Virus record (IMG/VR): IMGVR_UViG_3300020420_000056
Location: 1-24,803 of that record
Source of the DNA: a virus
DNA: 24,803 nt
Direction: 5' to 3' (one strand)
Shown here piece by piece: positions 17,507-23,317 of the stretch. The notes under the pieces are model-generated. The model was not told the DNA's origin. It saw nothing but the letters and a program-made list of their open reading frames with translations, and ran no database searches. A program made the translations under genes and the position numbers. The first letter of the stretch is position 1. Each line of letters opens with the position of its first letter.

Positions 17507-18382
17507 ATGAATGTTTTATCATGCTTTGATGGTATGGGTTGCGCTAGGATAGCCCTGGATAAACTTGGAATACCTGTCAATAATTATTTTGCTGCAGAGA
17601 TAGATAAGTACGCTATAAAAATTGCAAAGAAAAATTACCCAGACATTTTCCACGTTGGAGACATTACAAAAATAAACGACTATTTTGAATTCTGCCAAGG
17701 CAATACACCCATTGATTTAATGATCGGTGGGTCACCCTGCCAGGGTTTTTCATTCGCGGGTAAACGACTTAATTTTGATGATCCACGTTCTAAACTTTTC
17801 TTTGAGTTTGCCTGGTTCTATTACCGTTTAAAACCAAAATACTTTCTGCTTGAGAACGTGCGTATGAAGAAAGAATGTCAAGACGTTATCTCAAAGTATC
17901 TGGGTGTTGAACCTATTGCCATAAACAGCAGTTTAGTGAGCGCACAGAATCGCTACAGACTTTATTGGACAAACCTACCTTTTGATAAACTGCCAGAAGA
18001 CAAAGGCATAATGCTTCAAGATGTTTTACTTGATGATGCTACTGAGCCTATGTTATCAAATATCTATGGTGGATTTGGTGAGAAGAAACCAAGGGTGCAT
18101 TATGGAAAGTCAGTCACCATGAGAACAGGCGCTGGCGGTGGTCATATACCATCAGTAACAATTAAGGATGGCATTAGACAATTACATCCCATTGAGGTTG
18201 AAAGATTGCAGACAGTTCCCGACAACTATACTGAGGGAGTATCAAATACTCAAAGATATAAAATGTTAGGAAATGGTTTTACTGTAGATGTTATCTGTCA
18301 TTTATTGAGGGGCTTGCAACAGCCCCTTTCTTTTACCAGTCAATATCATCATCAAAATTATTATCAGCTATCTTTGGTTTAG
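17507..18382 (+). CDS. DNA (cytosine-5)-methyltransferase
   Basis: A 291-aa C5-cytosine methyltransferase using S-adenosylmethionine. Motif I is SCFDGMGCARIAL (residues 5-17), motif II carries Glu31, and motif IV is GSPCQGFS with catalytic Cys78. Motif VI is ENV (116-118), motif VIII QNRYRLYW (147-154), the target-recognition region lies at about 155-223, motif IX includes 'HPIEVERLQTVPDNYT', and motif X is GNGFTVDVI (255-263). No cognate endonuclease is next to it, so it is an orphan enzyme, likely protecting phage DNA or altering expression. The last about 20 codons run past a terminator hairpin and over the opposite-strand SSB gene. Confidence 0.95.
   Translation: MNVLSCFDGMGCARIALDKLGIPVNNYFAAEIDKYAIKIAKKNYPDIFHVGDITKINDYFEFCQGNTPIDLMIGGSPCQGFSFAGKRLNFDDPRSKLFFEFAWFYYRLKPKYFLLENVRMKKECQDVISKYLGVEPIAINSSLVSAQNRYRLYWTNLPFDKLPEDKGIMLQDVLLDDATEPMLSNIYGGFGEKKPRVHYGKSVTMRTGAGGGHIPSVTIKDGIRQLHPIEVERLQTVPDNYTEGVSNTQRYKMLGNGFTVDVICHLLRGLQQPLSFTSQYHHQNYYQLSLV
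18308..18334 (+). terminator. Intrinsic terminator inside the 3' end of the methyltransferase frame
   Basis: AGGGGCT (18308-18314), loop TGCAAC, and AGCCCCT (18321-18327) form a perfect 7-bp stem followed by TTCTTTT. It reads as a rho-independent terminator only in the plus direction. It lies 48 bases before the methyltransferase stop codon and at the junction with the opposing SSB gene, so it would end the rightward operon. Confidence 0.7.
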
Positions 18383-19852: not shown

Positions 19853-20053
19853 ATGAATATTACCAAAGCAATGAACCATTACATGGATCAATTAAACCTT
19901 AATCAATCGCAGTTTGCAGTAAAATGCGGCATGTCAATATCTATGACTTCAAAGATTGTAAGGGGCGAAAGGATACCGTCAGTAAGCACATTACAAAAAA
20001 TATCAGATGCTTGCGAAGTAAAACTATCTGAATTTATTAGGGCTGCTGAATGA
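19853..20053 (+). CDS. Cro/C1-type HTH transcriptional regulator
   Basis: A 66-aa single-domain XRE-family protein. The helix-turn-helix spans about residues 16-45: 'LNQSQFAVKCGMSISMTSKI', then 'VRGERIPSVSTLQKIS'. There is no cleavage or dimerisation domain as in CI, so its size and place as first gene of the rightward operon fit a Cro-like repressor. An AGGA site precedes the ATG. It lies just downstream of the divergent promoters and the TTGTAC inverted repeat, its likely target. Its TGA overlaps the next ATG. Confidence 0.88.
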   Translation: MNITKAMNHYMDQLNLNQSQFAVKCGMSISMTSKIVRGERIPSVSTLQKISDACEVKLSEFIRAAE

Positions 20054-20676
20054 ACGCATATAATTTTGTAAAGCCAAACTATTACGCAGTCATACCAGCT
20101 AGTGTTAGATATGATAAACGTCTAACAGCAAATGCTAAGTTGTTGTACGGTGAGATAAGCTCATTATGCAACAAAGAAGGCAGATGCTGGGCAACAAATA
20201 ATTACTTTGCTGAGTTGTACGGCATAGACAAACGATCTATTCAGAGATTAATACAATCACTGCATGCACTTGGTTATATAAAAATGACTGTAGAATACAA
20301 AGAAGGGACAAAAACAATTAGCAAAAGGTATGTACAAATTTGTCATGAGGGTAGCGACAAAAATGTCACCCCCCCTGGTGACAAAAATGTCACCCATAAT
20401 AATACAAGTATTAATATTAAATTTAATATACCTACTATTAACGAATTAGAAGAATATAAAAATAAAAAAGGTTATCAATGTGATGTACAACAATTTTATG
20501 ATTATCATTCATCAAAAGGGTGGGTAGTTGGTAAAGTCAAAATGAAAGACTGGAAACGTGCATTATCTTATTGGGAATCAAACGACAAAAAAAGGAGAAA
20601 CAACTATGGAACAGCAACAACTAAAACAGCTTATGCAGCAAGCATATACGACTACGAAAAAGCCACAGACTTTTAG
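20050..20676 (+). CDS. Replication initiator, lambda O-like
   Basis: A 208-aa protein with an N-terminal winged-helix domain (about residues 8-85): 'YYAVIPASVRYDKRLTANAK', 'WATNNYFAELYGIDKRSIQR' and 'LIQSLHALGYIKM'. This is the HTH_36-type DNA-binding domain of phage replication proteins. A low-complexity linker (about 98-125, with repeated 'DKNVT') is followed by a C-terminal domain with 'YDYHSSKGWVVGKVKMKDWK', a pattern seen at the end of many O-like initiators. Iterons and an AT-rich tract lie inside the linker-coding part. The 3' end overlaps the P-like gene by 71 bases. Confidence 0.85.
   Translation: MNAYNFVKPNYYAVIPASVRYDKRLTANAKLLYGEISSLCNKEGRCWATNNYFAELYGIDKRSIQRLIQSLHALGYIKMTVEYKEGTKTISKRYVQICHEGSDKNVTPPGDKNVTHNNTSINIKFNIPTINELEEYKNKKGYQCDVQQFYDYHSSKGWVVGKVKMKDWKRALSYWESNDKKRRNNYGTATTKTAYAASIYDYEKATDF
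20354..20393. repeat. Two 16-bp palindromic iterons within the O-like gene
   Basis: GCGACAAAAATGTCAC (20354-20369) and GTGACAAAAATGTCAC (20378-20393) repeat with a 24-bp period. The second is a perfect palindrome GTGACA-AAAA-TGTCAC; the first differs at one base. They encode the repeated 'DKNVT' of the linker. Weaker half-site likenesses occur at 20307-20315 and 20341-20346. Iterons inside the initiator gene are the hallmark of lambdoid origins. Confidence 0.75.
20354..20470. other. Putative lambda-type replication origin
   Basis: The two iterons are followed at once by an AT-rich stretch (about 20396-20469) with only about 9 G/C in 74 bases by my count. It contains a perfect 16-bp palindrome, ATATTAAATTTAATAT (20414-20429). 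Initiator-binding iterons followed by an easily melted region, both inside the O-like gene and upstream of a P-like helicase loader, reproduce the order of the lambda origin. This is inferred from structure, not shown. Confidence 0.7.
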
Positions 20677-21061
20677 CAAAAATCAAAAAGATGTAATCGC
20701 TTATTTCTTTTTTAGATTGCAAAACACTTATGGCATATCACGTATGCAAGCACAATGGCCTGATGATAACTCATTGTCCCTGGCAAAGAGAGAGTTTGGC
20801 AAGTCAATAGCAAAGATGAGCAGAGAAGAAGTCAACGCATTGTTTGATGAACTTCATGCAGAAAGGCAAAAAGGCAACGATAAGTTTACGTTTCCCGATA
20901 TTGATGCAATACTTAGTTTAGAGAAAACAAAGTACAGAATAGCTAGATATCATAAACTGTATATACCTCACCAGTTGCAGCCAGATAGTCAAAAAGAAAG
21001 GCGTGAAAAAAATATAATTGCACTTGCTAAACTCAAAGAAGAGTTAGGAATGAATGCATAA
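20606..21061 (+). CDS. Helicase loader, lambda P-like
   Basis: A 151-aa protein from the ATG at 20606, which has AAGGAGAAA 6 bases upstream; a longer frame from 20558 lacks this. It opens MEQQQLKQLMQQAY, and 'FFFRLQNTYGISRMQAQWPD' followed by 'LAKREFGKSIAKMSREEVNA', 'LFDELHAERQ' and 'KFTFPDIDAILSL' follow the pattern of P-type proteins, which deliver the host DnaB helicase to the O-bound origin. It overlaps the O-like gene by 71 bases in another frame, like the close O-P coupling of lambda. It is shorter than lambda P (233 aa). Confidence 0.75.
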   Translation: MEQQQLKQLMQQAYTTTKKPQTFSKNQKDVIAYFFFRLQNTYGISRMQAQWPDDNSLSLAKREFGKSIAKMSREEVNALFDELHAERQKGNDKFTFPDIDAILSLEKTKYRIARYHKLYIPHQLQPDSQKERREKNIIALAKLKEELGMNA

Positions 21062-21312: not shown

Positions 21313-21735
21313 ATGGCGCGGCATTGGCATGTAGACAACGATCACAAACGAGAATGTTTTAAAAAGTTTGTTGATGAGATATGTGAAGAGCATGATTTTG
21401 TTACGTTTATTTGTAAGACTAGCCGACCAAGAACCCCTAAACAACAAGCAGCACTTGAGGTTTACTTTAGAAATGCAGCAGGTATTTTAAATGATGCTGG
21501 TTATTATCATCAACTTAACGCTGAGTTTTTAAGGGATGCTATTGAAATACCTTGGACTCAAGAATCATTTAAAGAGTTTTGGCGATCAATACAGAATACG
21601 ATGTACGGTGTATCATCAACAAAAGACATTGAAGCAGACAAAGTATCTGAGGTCTATGATGCAATTAATTTAGCATTAAGTGAGCGCACAGGTATACATA
21701 TACCCTTCCCATCAAAGTCAATGACAGACGAATGA
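21313..21735 (+). CDS. NinB-like recombination protein (probable)
   Basis: A 140-aa protein, equal in size to lambda NinB (Orf, 146 aa). 'TSRPRTPKQQAALEVYFRNA' corresponds to the 'R...KQ...' N-terminal part of NinB-type proteins. The C-terminal 'KVSEVYDAINLALSERTGIH' followed by 'IPFPS' is a conserved ending in phage proteins at this locus. It directly precedes the NinG-like gene, with which it overlaps by ATGA. NinB modulates recombination by binding SSB-coated single strands; a similar role here is inferred from likeness and context. Confidence 0.6.
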   Translation: MARHWHVDNDHKRECFKKFVDEICEEHDFVTFICKTSRPRTPKQQAALEVYFRNAAGILNDAGYYHQLNAEFLRDAIEIPWTQESFKEFWRSIQNTMYGVSSTKDIEADKVSEVYDAINLALSERTGIHIPFPSKSMTDE

Positions 21736-22145
21736 GTCAGAAACTACGCAAAAAGTGTCTAACTGCACTACAAAAGTTAGCCAGAATATCTGCTGCCGAT
21801 CAATTTGGTATGGTGCAATGCGTATCATGCGAAAAAAAACTGCATTGGAAAGATGCAGATGGCGGCCACTACATAGCTAAAGGAAGCTCATCATACTGGG
21901 CCTTAGAAGTAGAGAACGTGCATCCACAATGTAAAGGCTGTAATTGTTTTGGAATGAGCAAAGGCAGCGCAGAAGGTCAATATACGTTATGGATGATTGA
22001 CATGTATGGTGAAGACTTTGTAAGACAGATGCATCAAGACAAACGCAAGTTAAAAAAGTTATACAAAAAAGACTATGAAGATATGCTGCAACACTTTAAT
22101 GAACTAATTAAATACCATGAACAAAGATTAGCTTGCATTGATTGA
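21732..22145 (+). CDS. ninG: NinG/Rap-like Holliday-junction endonuclease
   Basis: A 137-aa protein with the NinG/Rap pattern: CVSC zinc pair (residues 30-33), 'ADGGHYIAKGSSSYWALEVE' containing the conserved His46, and 'NVHPQCKGCNCF' with the second Cys pair (67/70) in an HNH-like zinc fold. 'YTLWMIDMYGEDFV' and a Lys-rich helical end follow. Lambda Rap cuts branched recombination intermediates. It closes the rightward early operon: a promoter and a terminator follow at once. Confidence 0.85.
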   Translation: MSQKLRKKCLTALQKLARISAADQFGMVQCVSCEKKLHWKDADGGHYIAKGSSSYWALEVENVHPQCKGCNCFGMSKGSAEGQYTLWMIDMYGEDFVRQMHQDKRKLKKLYKKDYEDMLQHFNELIKYHEQRLACID

Positions 22146-22160: not shown

Positions 22161-22193
22161 TAAGTTCCTTTTTTAAGGTTGATACCCCCTTTT

Positions 22194-22218
22194 AAAGCCC
22201 CACACAGGGGCTTTTTTT
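22194..22218 (+). terminator. Strong rho-independent terminator
   Basis: AAAGCCCC (22194-22201), loop ACACA and GGGGCTTT (22207-22214) form a perfect 8-bp stem leading into seven T's (22212-22218). It is directional for the plus strand. It ends the rightward early operon and would also stop the short transcript from the promoter just upstream. Confidence 0.88.
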
Positions 22219-22226
22219 GTTATACT
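22218..22226 (+). promoter_or_regulatory. Possible extended -10 element for leaderless expression
   Basis: TGTTATACT is an extended -10-like sequence whose predicted start point lies at or next to the ATG at 22233. The following gene has no Shine-Dalgarno sequence, which would fit a leaderless mRNA. No -35 box is evident. Confidence 0.35.
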
Positions 22227-22232
22227 GAAAAA

Positions 22233-22517
22233 ATGGAAAAGAAAAGTTTACTTAAACGTATCGGTGTATCAGGTTATAACAAGCCAAAACGCACACCAAA
22301 TCATCCTACAAAATCTCACGTTGTTGTTGCAAAATCTGGTAATAAAGTTAAAACTATACGTTTCGGACAGCAAGGAGCTAAGACTGCTGGTAAACCAAAA
22401 GCTGGTGAATCAGATAGGATGAAAAAAAAACGTGCTAGTTTCAAAGCAAGGCATAGAAAAAATATAGCACGAGGTAATATGTCTGCTGCATACTGGGCAA
22501 ACAAAGTTAAATGGTAA
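22233..22517 (+). CDS. Conserved small basic phage protein (DUF6321-like)
   Basis: A 94-aa protein from the ATG at 22233; a frame opening at 22179 would start inside the terminator region. It has about 27 Lys/Arg to 3 Asp/Glu. Blocks 'GVSGYNKPKRTPNHPTKSHV', 'VKTIRFGQQG' and 'SFKARHRKNIARGNMSAAYW' recur nearly unchanged in many marine phages, and I associate them with the DUF6321 family, without certainty. Charge and conserved aromatic end suggest nucleic-acid binding. It is the first of six consecutive basic proteins. Confidence 0.75.
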   Translation: MEKKSLLKRIGVSGYNKPKRTPNHPTKSHVVVAKSGNKVKTIRFGQQGAKTAGKPKAGESDRMKKKRASFKARHRKNIARGNMSAAYWANKVKW

Positions 22518-22530
22518 AAGGAGATTAATC

Positions 22531-22593
22531 ATGCCATATCATAAAGGATCAAAGAGCAAACCAAAGCCAAAGAAAAGTAAGCCAAGGAAGTAA
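22531..22593 (+). CDS. 20-aa Lys-rich micropeptide
   Basis: A 20-codon frame, MPYHKGSKSKPKPKKSKPRK, with nine Lys/Arg and no acidic residue. A strong AAAAGGAGATTAATC leader puts GGAG 7 bases before the ATG, the best ribosome-binding site in this stretch, which is why I accept so short a frame. The start 'MPYHKGS' is seen on other small phage basic proteins, so it may be a remnant or a genuine peptide. Confidence 0.5.
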   Translation: MPYHKGSKSKPKPKKSKPRK

Positions 22594-22594
22594 C

Positions 22595-22768
22595 GTGGCA
22601 AAGGGTACAAAACATTACTTTGCTGATGGCAGAGAGTACACAGGTGGCACTCACAAAATGCCAAATGGTGAAACGCATAGTGGTTCAATGCATACGAGAA
22701 ACAGCAAAAAGTTGTTTCATTTCAAAGACTTATCAGAGAAAGCTAAGAAAAAAGCTATGGGTAAATAA
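22595..22768 (+). CDS. 57-aa small basic protein
   Basis: A frame starting at GTG (22595), one base after the micropeptide stop, encodes MAKGTKHYFADGREYTGGTH, then 'KMPNGETHSGSMHTRNSKKL' and a Lys-rich end. Small proteins with 'DG..YTGGTHKMPNGE.H.G..H...SK.LFH' are conserved in marine phages and unassigned. About 13 Lys/Arg, several His. The preceding ACG/AAG-rich end of the micropeptide serves as its leader, so coupling is likely. Confidence 0.65.
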   Translation: MAKGTKHYFADGREYTGGTHKMPNGETHSGSMHTRNSKKLFHFKDLSEKAKKKAMGK

Positions 22769-22770
22769 CT

Positions 22771-22893
22771 ATGGATATGAAGAAAAAGAAAAAACTTACT
22801 GCACGACAAAGAAAACTCGCAGCTATGTATGGTGACAAAAATAAAATTACTCGCGGTGATGTGATTGCTGCTGCTAGGAAAGGTAAAAAATGA
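22771..22893 (+). CDS. 40-aa small basic protein
   Basis: A 40-codon frame starting MDMKKKKKLTARQRKLAAMY and ending 'RGDVIAAARKGKK', with about 15 Lys/Arg. It begins two bases after the 57-aa gene and its TGA overlaps the next ATG (ATGA). The 'LTARQRKLAAMYGDKNKITR' core looks like a short helix-loop-helix. Similar 'LT.RQ..LA...P...KIT..D..A' pieces occur in small phage proteins; function unknown. Confidence 0.6.
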   Translation: MDMKKKKKLTARQRKLAAMYGDKNKITRGDVIAAARKGKK

Positions 22894-23066
22894 AACATAA
22901 ATCACGTGTCAATGAAGCTGGTAACTACACCAAGCCAAAGATGAGAAAGAGTTTATTTGAAGCTATCAAACGTGGTGGTAAAGGTGGTAGACCTGGGCAA
23001 TGGTCAGCACGTAAAGCACAGATGTTAGCAAAGCAATACAAAGCTAGGGGTGGTGGCTACAGATAA
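22890..23066 (+). CDS. 58-aa conserved small basic protein
   Basis: A 58-codon frame: MKHKSRVNEAGNYTKPKMRK, 'LFEAIKRGGKGGRPGQWSAR', 'KAQMLAKQYKARGGGYR'. About 17 Lys/Arg to 2 acidic. 'RVNEAGNYTKP.MRK' and 'GGKGG.PGQWSARKAQ.LAK.YK..GGGY' are strikingly conserved in many tailed phages of aquatic bacteria, with no known function. Overlaps both neighbours by short start/stop overlaps, showing coupled translation. Confidence 0.75.
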   Translation: MKHKSRVNEAGNYTKPKMRKSLFEAIKRGGKGGRPGQWSARKAQMLAKQYKARGGGYR

Positions 23067-23317
23067 TGTCCCTCAGAAAGCCACAGAAATCGCTTTTAGA
23101 CTGGGGTAAACAAGACTGGGGGACTAAGTCAGGTAAACCATCTACCGTTGGCCCTAAGGCCACAGGAGAGCGTTATCTGCCACGTAGAGCTAGACAGGCA
23201 TTATCATCTCAAGAATATGCAGCGACCAGTAGAAAGAAAAGACGAGACACTAAGGCTGGCAAACAGTTTTCTAAACAACCAAAACGCATATCAAAGAAGA
23301 CAGCCAGGTATCGTTAG
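23066..23317 (+). CDS. 83-aa conserved small basic protein (DUF5872-like)
   Basis: An 83-aa protein, MSLRKPQKSLLDWGKQDWGT, then 'KSGKPS', 'GERYLPRRARQALSSQEYAA' and a basic end 'KQPKRISKKTARYR'. About 25 Lys/Arg to 5 acidic. The 'W..QDWGTKSGK' and 'GERYLP..A..ALS..EYAAT' blocks recall the DUF5872 type found in phages and large DNA viruses; I am not certain of that name. Its start overlaps the previous stop by one base, and its end overlaps the opposing endolysin gene by 4 bases. Confidence 0.75.
   Translation: MSLRKPQKSLLDWGKQDWGTKSGKPSTVGPKATGERYLPRRARQALSSQEYAATSRKKRRDTKAGKQFSKQPKRISKKTARYR

Follow-up and report, generated by a model that had tools for sequence, protein, structure and literature searches.

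Do two tandem repeats inside a putative initiator gene of an uncultured phage mark its origin of replication, and which part of the encoded protein would read them? Origins inside initiator genes are textbook knowledge for lambda, and sequence does not in general reveal what sets origin specificity in different phages. We analyzed the window, which is the entire 24,803-base virus record, together with related initiator genes. The locus is very likely a lambda-type replication origin inside its own initiator gene, although binding and the start of replication are inferred, no binding or replication data being available for this phage.

Anatomy of the iteron region and its neighbors

The features are listed in Table 1, and the anatomy described here is shown unless marked as predicted. 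The 16-mer GACAAAAATGTCACCC has exactly two copies (20356-20371 and 20380-20395) with a start-to-start distance of 24 bp, both in the linker-coding part of the HTH initiator gene. The sequence-only reading had described two 16-bp palindromic repeats at this place and spacing. Place and spacing held, and the palindromes failed: each copy contains the inverted repeat GACA-AAAA-TGTC and is not a perfect 16-bp palindrome. The inverted repeat of the second copy widens to GGTGACA-AAAA-TGTCACC (20377-20394), and the first copy has a single left-arm mismatch (GCGACA). The iteron unit is composed of the arm TGACA and the core AAAA. Only two iterons are clear in the window, one of them imperfect. A degenerate third one, read by eye, would be in register with the other two and is perhaps a chance resemblance. 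The AT tract was found to be the sole 74-bp stretch with no more than nine G/C among the 24,730 positions of the window. This tract, the perfect 16-bp AT palindrome in it, and the DKNVT peptide repeated in the linker as encoded by the two iterons had all been claimed earlier, and all held.

An exact 16-bp repeat at 18-30 bp spacing with such an inverted repeat occurred in none of 300 dinucleotide shuffles of the window. With the protein fixed, 4 of 60 synonymous-codon shuffles matched or beat the array score of the window gene, because most of the repeat is already dictated by the recurring DKNVT peptide. On its own, the window thus gives only weak support to selection at the DNA level, and relatives are needed.

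Table 1. Features of the origin region (positions in the window)
Feature	Position	Strand	Basis or remark
Cro/CI-type HTH regulator, immediately upstream of initiator	19853-20053	+	HTH_3 2e-12
O-like replication initiator, 208 aa	20050-20676	+	HTH_36 PF13730 1.9e-14; PHROG 19658/270 replication initiation; AlphaFold model
Predicted recognition helix, residues 61-73 (KRSIQRLIQSLHA)	20230-20268	+	AlphaFold model
Arg62 codon	20233-20235	+	covaries with iteron arms
Arg66 codon	20245-20247	+	covaries with iteron arms
Possible degenerate third iteron TGTACAAATTTGTCAT	20331-20346	+	23 bp before iteron 1; 10/16 bases match consensus
Iteron 1, GCGACA-AAAA-TGTCAC, one arm base off	20354-20369	+	repeat search; relative L093 reads GTGACA here
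Iteron 2, GTGACA-AAAA-TGTCAC, perfect	20378-20393	+	24 bp past iteron 1; 18-mer GGTGACAAAAATGTCACC at 20377-20394
AT tract, 9 G/C in 74 bases	20396-20469	+	base count across window
Conserved AT element TAATAATACAAGTATTAAT, presumed unwinding element	20397-20415	+	exact 19-mer shared with other viral loci
Perfect 16-bp AT palindrome ATATTAAATTTAATAT, within AT tract	20414-20429	+	sequence
Putative P-like helicase loader, 151 aa, all helical, ATG at 20606	20606-21061	+	predicted structure versus lambda P
NinG-like gene, downstream	21732-22145	+	PF05766 2.1e-10; PHROG 171

The initiator matches HTH_36 (PF13730) with 53.6 bits against a curated cut-off of 25, and its PHROG matches include replication initiation families at 1.6e-32 and 2.2e-25. 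The O-like PHROG families 678, 345, and 391 match at 4.2e-10, 3e-8, and 9e-5, respectively, and other initiation families score far better. Pfam at an E of 1e-3 gave HTH_36 only, with no match to the O-family or RepA_N (PF06970), and a PDB search by sequence found nothing specific, the best hit being a riboflavin kinase wHTH (E 0.0053). The label of an O-like gene hence held in part: this is an HTH_36 protein having weaker PHROG O-like matches and no Pfam O-family hit. Its AlphaFold model is composed of wHTH helices and a wing (about residues 13-97; mean pLDDT about 90 over residues 21-80), a disordered linker (residues 101-123), and a helical C-terminal part (residues 130-185). The disordered stretch is encoded by both repeats and the beginning of the AT tract. 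The wHTH model was aligned over 99 residues with 4pql (Z 9.5), 4pt7 (Z 9.0), and 5kbj (Z 8.8), which we take to be RepA_N initiators, 5kbj being a Rep-DNA complex. Some other wHTH folds score within 1 Z of the 4pql match, and fold families missing from the structure-match lists (VIA) were not counted as excluded. The initiator is an HTH_36 protein whose predicted fold also resembles, among others, those of RepA_N plasmid initiators.

The sequence-only reading had also placed a P-like helicase loader next to the initiator. The model of this protein superimposes on lambda P in the DnaB complex (9oa1_Z) with a VIA Z of 8.8 and a root mean square deviation of 3.6 over 85 residues, and the next row has a Z of 2.6. 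Lambda P surfaced only in VIA, which served as a second-look aligner, while Foldseek alone gave no significant match (best E 3.7). No Pfam family scored above cut-off, the match to PHROG 109 (P-like) was marginal (E 0.033; weak also in 3 of 11 relatives), and a profile of 11 relatives gave no convincing alignment with lambda P (probability 0.7%). The claim held in part; we regard the gene as likely P-like with moderate confidence, as this label rests on a predicted structure and the sequence tests are weak.

The proposed lambda origin plan is supported part by part, namely by the initiator matches, the disordered linker encoded by the iterons, the unique AT tract, the predicted loader fold, and NinG. 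The virion genes include a head-to-tail connector (PF12236, 7.6e-82) and tail families, and the podovirus virion suggested earlier is plausible. GC skew, a check that had been proposed, was computed and rejected as an origin mark: it has its minimum and turn near 19.75 kb, yet it tracks gene orientation, so it is not diagnostic. Elsewhere in the window, a C5-cytosine DNA methyltransferase gene (17507-18382; PF00145, 7.5e-42) lies a few genes before the origin, and positions 22179-23317 hold a series of short basic ORFs with a high Lys and Gly content.

Recurrence of paired iterons and the AT element

Initiators were gathered by protein similarity, by DNA pattern, and from phage records, with redundancy cut by shared 5-mers. 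In 91% of 125 genes, versus 60% in codon shuffles, the best inverted-repeat pair directly follows the HTH, and for 56 of the 125 no more than 1 of 100 codon shuffles was as good as the real paired array. With a finder requiring an A-rich 4-bp core, arrays were detected in 112 of 179 genes against a codon-shuffled mean of 45.9 (maximum 53), and none in the other 67. Perfect units with 6-bp arms are present in 53 genes of this set, compared with 5.7 (maximum 10) in shuffles. Array spacing is 20-25 bp, most commonly 24, then 23 and 22, and 65 of the 112 arrays are spread over two or more reading frames. Recurrence in relatives is shown by these data; homologous initiators retain the A4 core and the 21-24 bp spacing, and their arms vary. 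Examples of the units are TTGACG-CAAA-CGTCAA in Staphylococcus phage 77, TCACGA-AAAA-TCGTGA in Fusobacterium FNU4, CCGA-AAAA-TCGG in Lactobacillus J-1, and CGACA-AAAA-TGTCG in Flavonifractor Cormatin, while no clear units are seen in iLp1308, KC5a, and Acetoanaerobium ANDSL2, whose repeats are weak or of another kind. Between the units of the 179-gene set, a run of C or G with TA after it (CCCTA/GGGTA) is frequent and is conserved besides the arms.

Widely different phages carry the TGACA-A4 iteron of the window in their initiator genes. A search of viral contigs for the exact 18-mer GGTGACAAAAATGTCACC yielded 18 stretches, eight of which have it in an ORF matched by our own wHTH profile (E below 0.01). 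Seven further loci (L001, L003, L004, L010, L013, L015, and L016) have ORFs too divergent for this cut; the five that were scanned (L001, L004, L010, L013, and L015) match PHROG replication initiation or O-like families, and L003 and L016 resemble near copies of L001 and L004. The remaining loci L006, L008, and L018 do not fit the initiator pattern. The doubled core TGACAAAAATGTCA was found in 30 stretches, with 21 in a wHTH ORF at the same E cut. The scan of genome contigs for the 18-mer was mostly noise: 6 of 33 loci are in a wHTH ORF by HMM, plus L057 (cut) and L070 by eye, and most of the rest look like single chance matches. The record titles of the six are Deltaproteobacteria, Acidobacteria, Treponema, Ruminococcaceae, Bacteroidales, and Ruegeria, and several of them have more iterons about 22-24 bp away. 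L070 (5200-5270), from a Lyngbya MAG, has four iterons at an exact spacing of 21 bp in an ORF without a Pfam or PHROG match, and an upstream helix SRRAILR was read by eye.

The TGACA-A4 unit is used in more than one reading frame, being translated as DKNVT, VTKMSP, or xQKCH, sometimes within one gene. Within the units of GACA-type genes, TGACA is never placed in the frame that would make it a stop codon, the counts for the other two frames being 40 and 11.

The conserved AT element sits behind many different iterons. The exact 19-mer TAATAATACAAGTATTAAT is present in at least 120 viral stretches, and 108 of the 119 loci examined have it within a wHTH initiator ORF. In these ORFs it keeps one constant frame (NNTSIN) at a median of 50 nt beyond the end of the HTH match. 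Among the protein-selected genes, the 16 of 118 that encode NNTSI use ACA in 16/16 (background 0.42), AGT in 13/16 (0.31), and ATT in 15/16 (0.43). This bias suggests, on small numbers and no more than tentatively, DNA-level selection on the AT element; the single frame leaves a protein-level reason open.

The iteron also occurs outside initiator genes. Two Fic/DOC-type gut genes, L049 (2789-3865, plus strand; Fic by Pfam) and L066 (722-1795, minus strand), have the 18-mer inside their coding sequence and a C-terminal wHTH with KRTAIR, that is, the Arg62/Arg66 pair predicted by the code described below. The iteron could be a self-operator rather than an origin in these genes. At L031 (11066-11113), L035 (308-345), L041 (944-985), and L062 (3727-3744), iterons that are doubled or accompanied by a half have no long ORF over them, and may be origins or operators lying outside an initiator gene.

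Recognition-helix residues and arm bases

We then compared the recognition helices with the iteron arms, the arms being read without reference to the protein. The first set has 79 arrays from 126 genes, and a held-out non-redundant set has 33 arrays from 53 genes. In the pooled data, C at arm base 5 occurs in 50 of 52 cases with Arg66 and 1 of 28 with Lys66, while G at arm base 3 occurs in 39 of 40 with Arg/Glu62 and 0 of 21 with Val62. For base 3 in the first set, Arg62 goes with G in 24/24, Glu62 with G in 4/4, and Val62 with A in 17/18; the corresponding held-out counts are 7/7, 4/5, and 3/3. For base 5, Arg66 goes with C in 39/40 and Lys66 with A in 15/19 in the first set, and in 11/12 and 8/9 in the held-out set. 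Mutual information between alignment columns and the six arm bases is highest for residue 66 with base 5, residue 62 with base 3, and residue 65 with base 1 (z 21.2, 15.5, and 13.9, respectively). GACA arms are present in 22 of 23 cases with Arg62 and Arg66, versus 2 of 89 with all other combinations. The covariation of residues 62 and 66 with arm bases 3 and 5 is thereby shown; direct contact of these residues with the bases is inferred.

Because some loci had been chosen by DNA motif, the analysis was rerun on protein-selected genes only (67 arrays from 118 genes). Arg66 goes with C in 24/25, Lys66 with A in 18/21, Arg62 with G in 13/13, and Val62 with A in 11/12, the Arg62/Arg66 pair itself being present in only 10 of the 118 genes. 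Codon shuffling was tried as a null and rejected, since the linker peptide itself encodes the iteron and shuffled genes retain part of the code (C at base 5 in 198/334 with Arg66 and 10/287 with Lys66). Sister pairs and a DNA-first scan were therefore used instead.

The sister pairs were matched by distance, computed without residues 55-70. Among the closest non-overlapping pairs that differ at residue 66, base 5 differs in 20 of 21, compared with 4 of 22 pairs that are alike at this residue and at least 0.30 apart. Base 3 differs in 11 of 11 pairs differing at residue 62 versus 2 of 14 alike pairs. For instance, Staphylococcus phage 77 and L176 are separated by a distance of 0.09 when the helix is left out, and the former combines KETISRR with TTGACG whereas the latter combines KVTVSRR with TTAACA (Glu or Val at 62, G or A at base 3).

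The DNA-first prediction was set down before scanning for TTAACA and TTAAAG iterons in doubled form. Of the loci found, 18 of 20 with TTAACA and 30 of 32 with TTAAAG lie in an initiator ORF. Residue 66 is Arg in 18/18 of the former and in 0/30 of the latter, where it is Lys in 23. At the 18 TTAACA loci, residue 62 is Asn in 12, which share one helix sequence, and Val in the remaining 6; at the TTAAAG loci it is Val in 26 of 30. The exact predicted residue pair is found in 6 of 11 (TTAACA) and 13 of 20 (TTAAAG) distinct proteins. Residue 66 is hence a strong predictor, its DNA-first prediction being fully borne out, and residue 62 a partial one, as A is also accompanied by Asn and a few other residues. 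When 22 loci found by the TGACA motif were re-profiled, the helix could be aligned in 19, and 16 of these have Arg62 and Arg66 (residues read by eye), comprising 14 initiator-like ORFs, near-copies among them, and the two Fic genes. L015, L020, and L021 lack the pair, L070 and L057 were unaligned over the helix, and L032 gave no row. L015 (7316-8314) is an exception to the code, being an initiator with Arg62 and Lys66 that still has TGACA iterons.

Close relatives of the window exhibit the same linkage. In a comparison with L093, L094, L095, and L096 (96-70% protein identity), the flanking sequence shows good conservation, and all five have TAATAATACAAGTATTAATATTAAATTTAATA without a change. 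The iteron blocks of L095 and L096 are wholly different from that of the window, and so are their recognition helices. Iterons and helix have been exchanged together while the AT element is unchanged. The sequence-only reading would have been refuted by relatives that keep the linker and lose the palindromic spacing, and the opposite was found, the iterons being replaced together with the helix. Its remark that the iterons differ from those of lambda held and can be extended, as arms track the recognition helix across the family.

A bolder reading, which we consider likely as a whole, is that HTH_36 phage initiators share a predictive code (residue 66 to arm base 5, residue 62 to arm base 3). 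The iteron block and helix would change as one cassette with the AT element kept, origin specificity would be switched by one or two residue changes plus rewriting of the linker, and Arg62/Arg66 with TGACA-AAAA-TGTCA would be either kept or repeatedly reached in phages of many bacterial phyla. If the code is true, an initiator protein predicts its origin iterons and vice versa, origins become callable in thousands of uncultured phages, and it becomes predictable which co-resident phages, prophages, and satellites could fire each other's origins. As the reader and its text are one DNA, such a gene is also well suited to clean studies of changing protein-DNA specificity. Searches of the open-access literature for the iteron, the code, or intragenic phage origins brought up neither a TGACA-A4 iteron nor a residue-to-base code, subscription papers being outside their scope. 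The code, the widely shared iteron, and the conserved AT element are apparently new, though the literature was not searched for the sequence of the AT element.

Proposed mechanism, rival explanations, and known systems

All steps of the following mechanism, namely binding, dimerization, bending, melting, loading, and the start of replication here, are inferred. Within the linker-coding segment of its own gene, the O-like wHTH domain would bind every arm-AAAA-arm iteron, probably as a dimer; Arg62 and Arg66 in the recognition helix would read the TGACA half-site, and the A4 core would supply a bend. Iterons about two turns apart would build an O-some of two or three units, which would open the adjoining AT element, and the P-like protein would deliver the host DnaB helicase. 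Mechanistic precedents are the O proteins and iterons of lambda and Stx phages (PMC7466680) and the RepA_N initiator of pSK41, whose Rep boxes lie inside rep (PMC5703833).

Three rival explanations were considered. The first attributes the covariation of residues and bases to shared ancestry instead of direct reading. In its favor, the genes are related to each other, and linked signals occur at several columns within or close to the helix. It is nevertheless unlikely: covariation persists in the distance-matched sister pairs despite the omission of residues 55-70 from the distance, phage 77 and L176 differ at residue 62 and arm base 3 despite their closeness elsewhere, and Arg62 and Arg66 are present in highly divergent initiators that had been picked up solely by their DNA pattern.

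The second rival holds that the repeats are autoregulatory operators repressing the initiator gene or downstream genes, with replication starting elsewhere. wHTH folds are common among repressors, and one Fic gene family with a matching HTH carries the 18-mer where no origin is expected. Against this, the repeats are in the middle of the gene, in the linker, and are followed by a unique AT tract and a gene for a putative lambda-P-like loader, and relatives are annotated as replication initiation proteins, often adjoining DnaB-like helicases. We consider this rival very unlikely, while autoregulation on top of the origin role is not excluded and remains possible.

The third rival, that the repeats merely reflect a DKNVT peptide important in the protein and the DNA palindrome is incidental, draws on the 4 of 60 protein-preserving shuffles that are as good as the window gene, and is all but excluded by the reading of one DNA unit as three different peptides, the 65 of 112 multi-frame arrays, the absence of TGACA from the stop frame versus 51 in the other two, and the 53 perfect units versus at most 10 in shuffles.

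The preferred reading, a lambda-type origin, was then compared with known systems. Lambda and RepA_N plasmids already exhibit the origin plan itself, and PLE satellites and pPR9 the covariation of initiator domain and origin. Like lambda ori, the window has tandem iterons with an A-tract center in the initiator coding sequence, in the linker between the DNA-binding and C-terminal parts, with a spacing of about 20-24 bp, an AT-rich tract adjoining the last iteron, and a loader gene next, predicted to have the lambda P fold. It differs in that its arms are TGACA around a 4-bp core, whereas lambda has TCCCT arms and the 5-bp core AAAAC (TCCCTC-AAAAC-GAGGGA); that it has two clear iterons, whereas lambda has four; that its initiator belongs to HTH_36 without a Pfam O-family match; and that its P-like protein has 151 instead of 233 residues.

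The initiators of the RepA_N plasmids pSK41 and pTZ2162 resemble that of the window in having Rep boxes and an A/T tract in the middle of rep, where the origin encodes the linker (PMC5703833), and may resemble it in the wHTH fold, given the alignment with solved initiator domains described above and the close scores of some other wHTH folds. They belong to another Pfam family, and the window differs in being a phage with a separate, putative lambda-P-like loader. The hybrid initiator of plasmid pPR9 has an HTH_36 domain and its own origin on a pSK41 backbone, the two having been exchanged together, and its mini-replicon works and is compatible with pSK41 (PMC5703833). Its likeness to the window, judged from the published description alone, is that an HTH_36 domain travels with its own origin. 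In the PLE RepA/Odn system of Vibrio, the RepA_N domain of RepA covaries and is swapped with the origin (PMC8263062). It differs from the window in that the origin is intergenic, and the passages bearing on it contain no residue-to-base code (PMC8263062).

Further counterparts are HTH_36 initiators of other phages, including Leuconostoc LLC-1, Flavonifractor Cormatin, Staphylococcus 77, and Lactobacillus J-1, with up to 59% identity in the wHTH. They have arm-A4-arm arrays at 21-24 bp in the linker, and their arms differ along with the helix. In LLC-1, J-1, Cormatin, Cellulophaga 39:1, and Acetoanaerobium ANDSL2, the next gene encodes a DnaB-like helicase, whereas in the window this place is taken by the putative loader.
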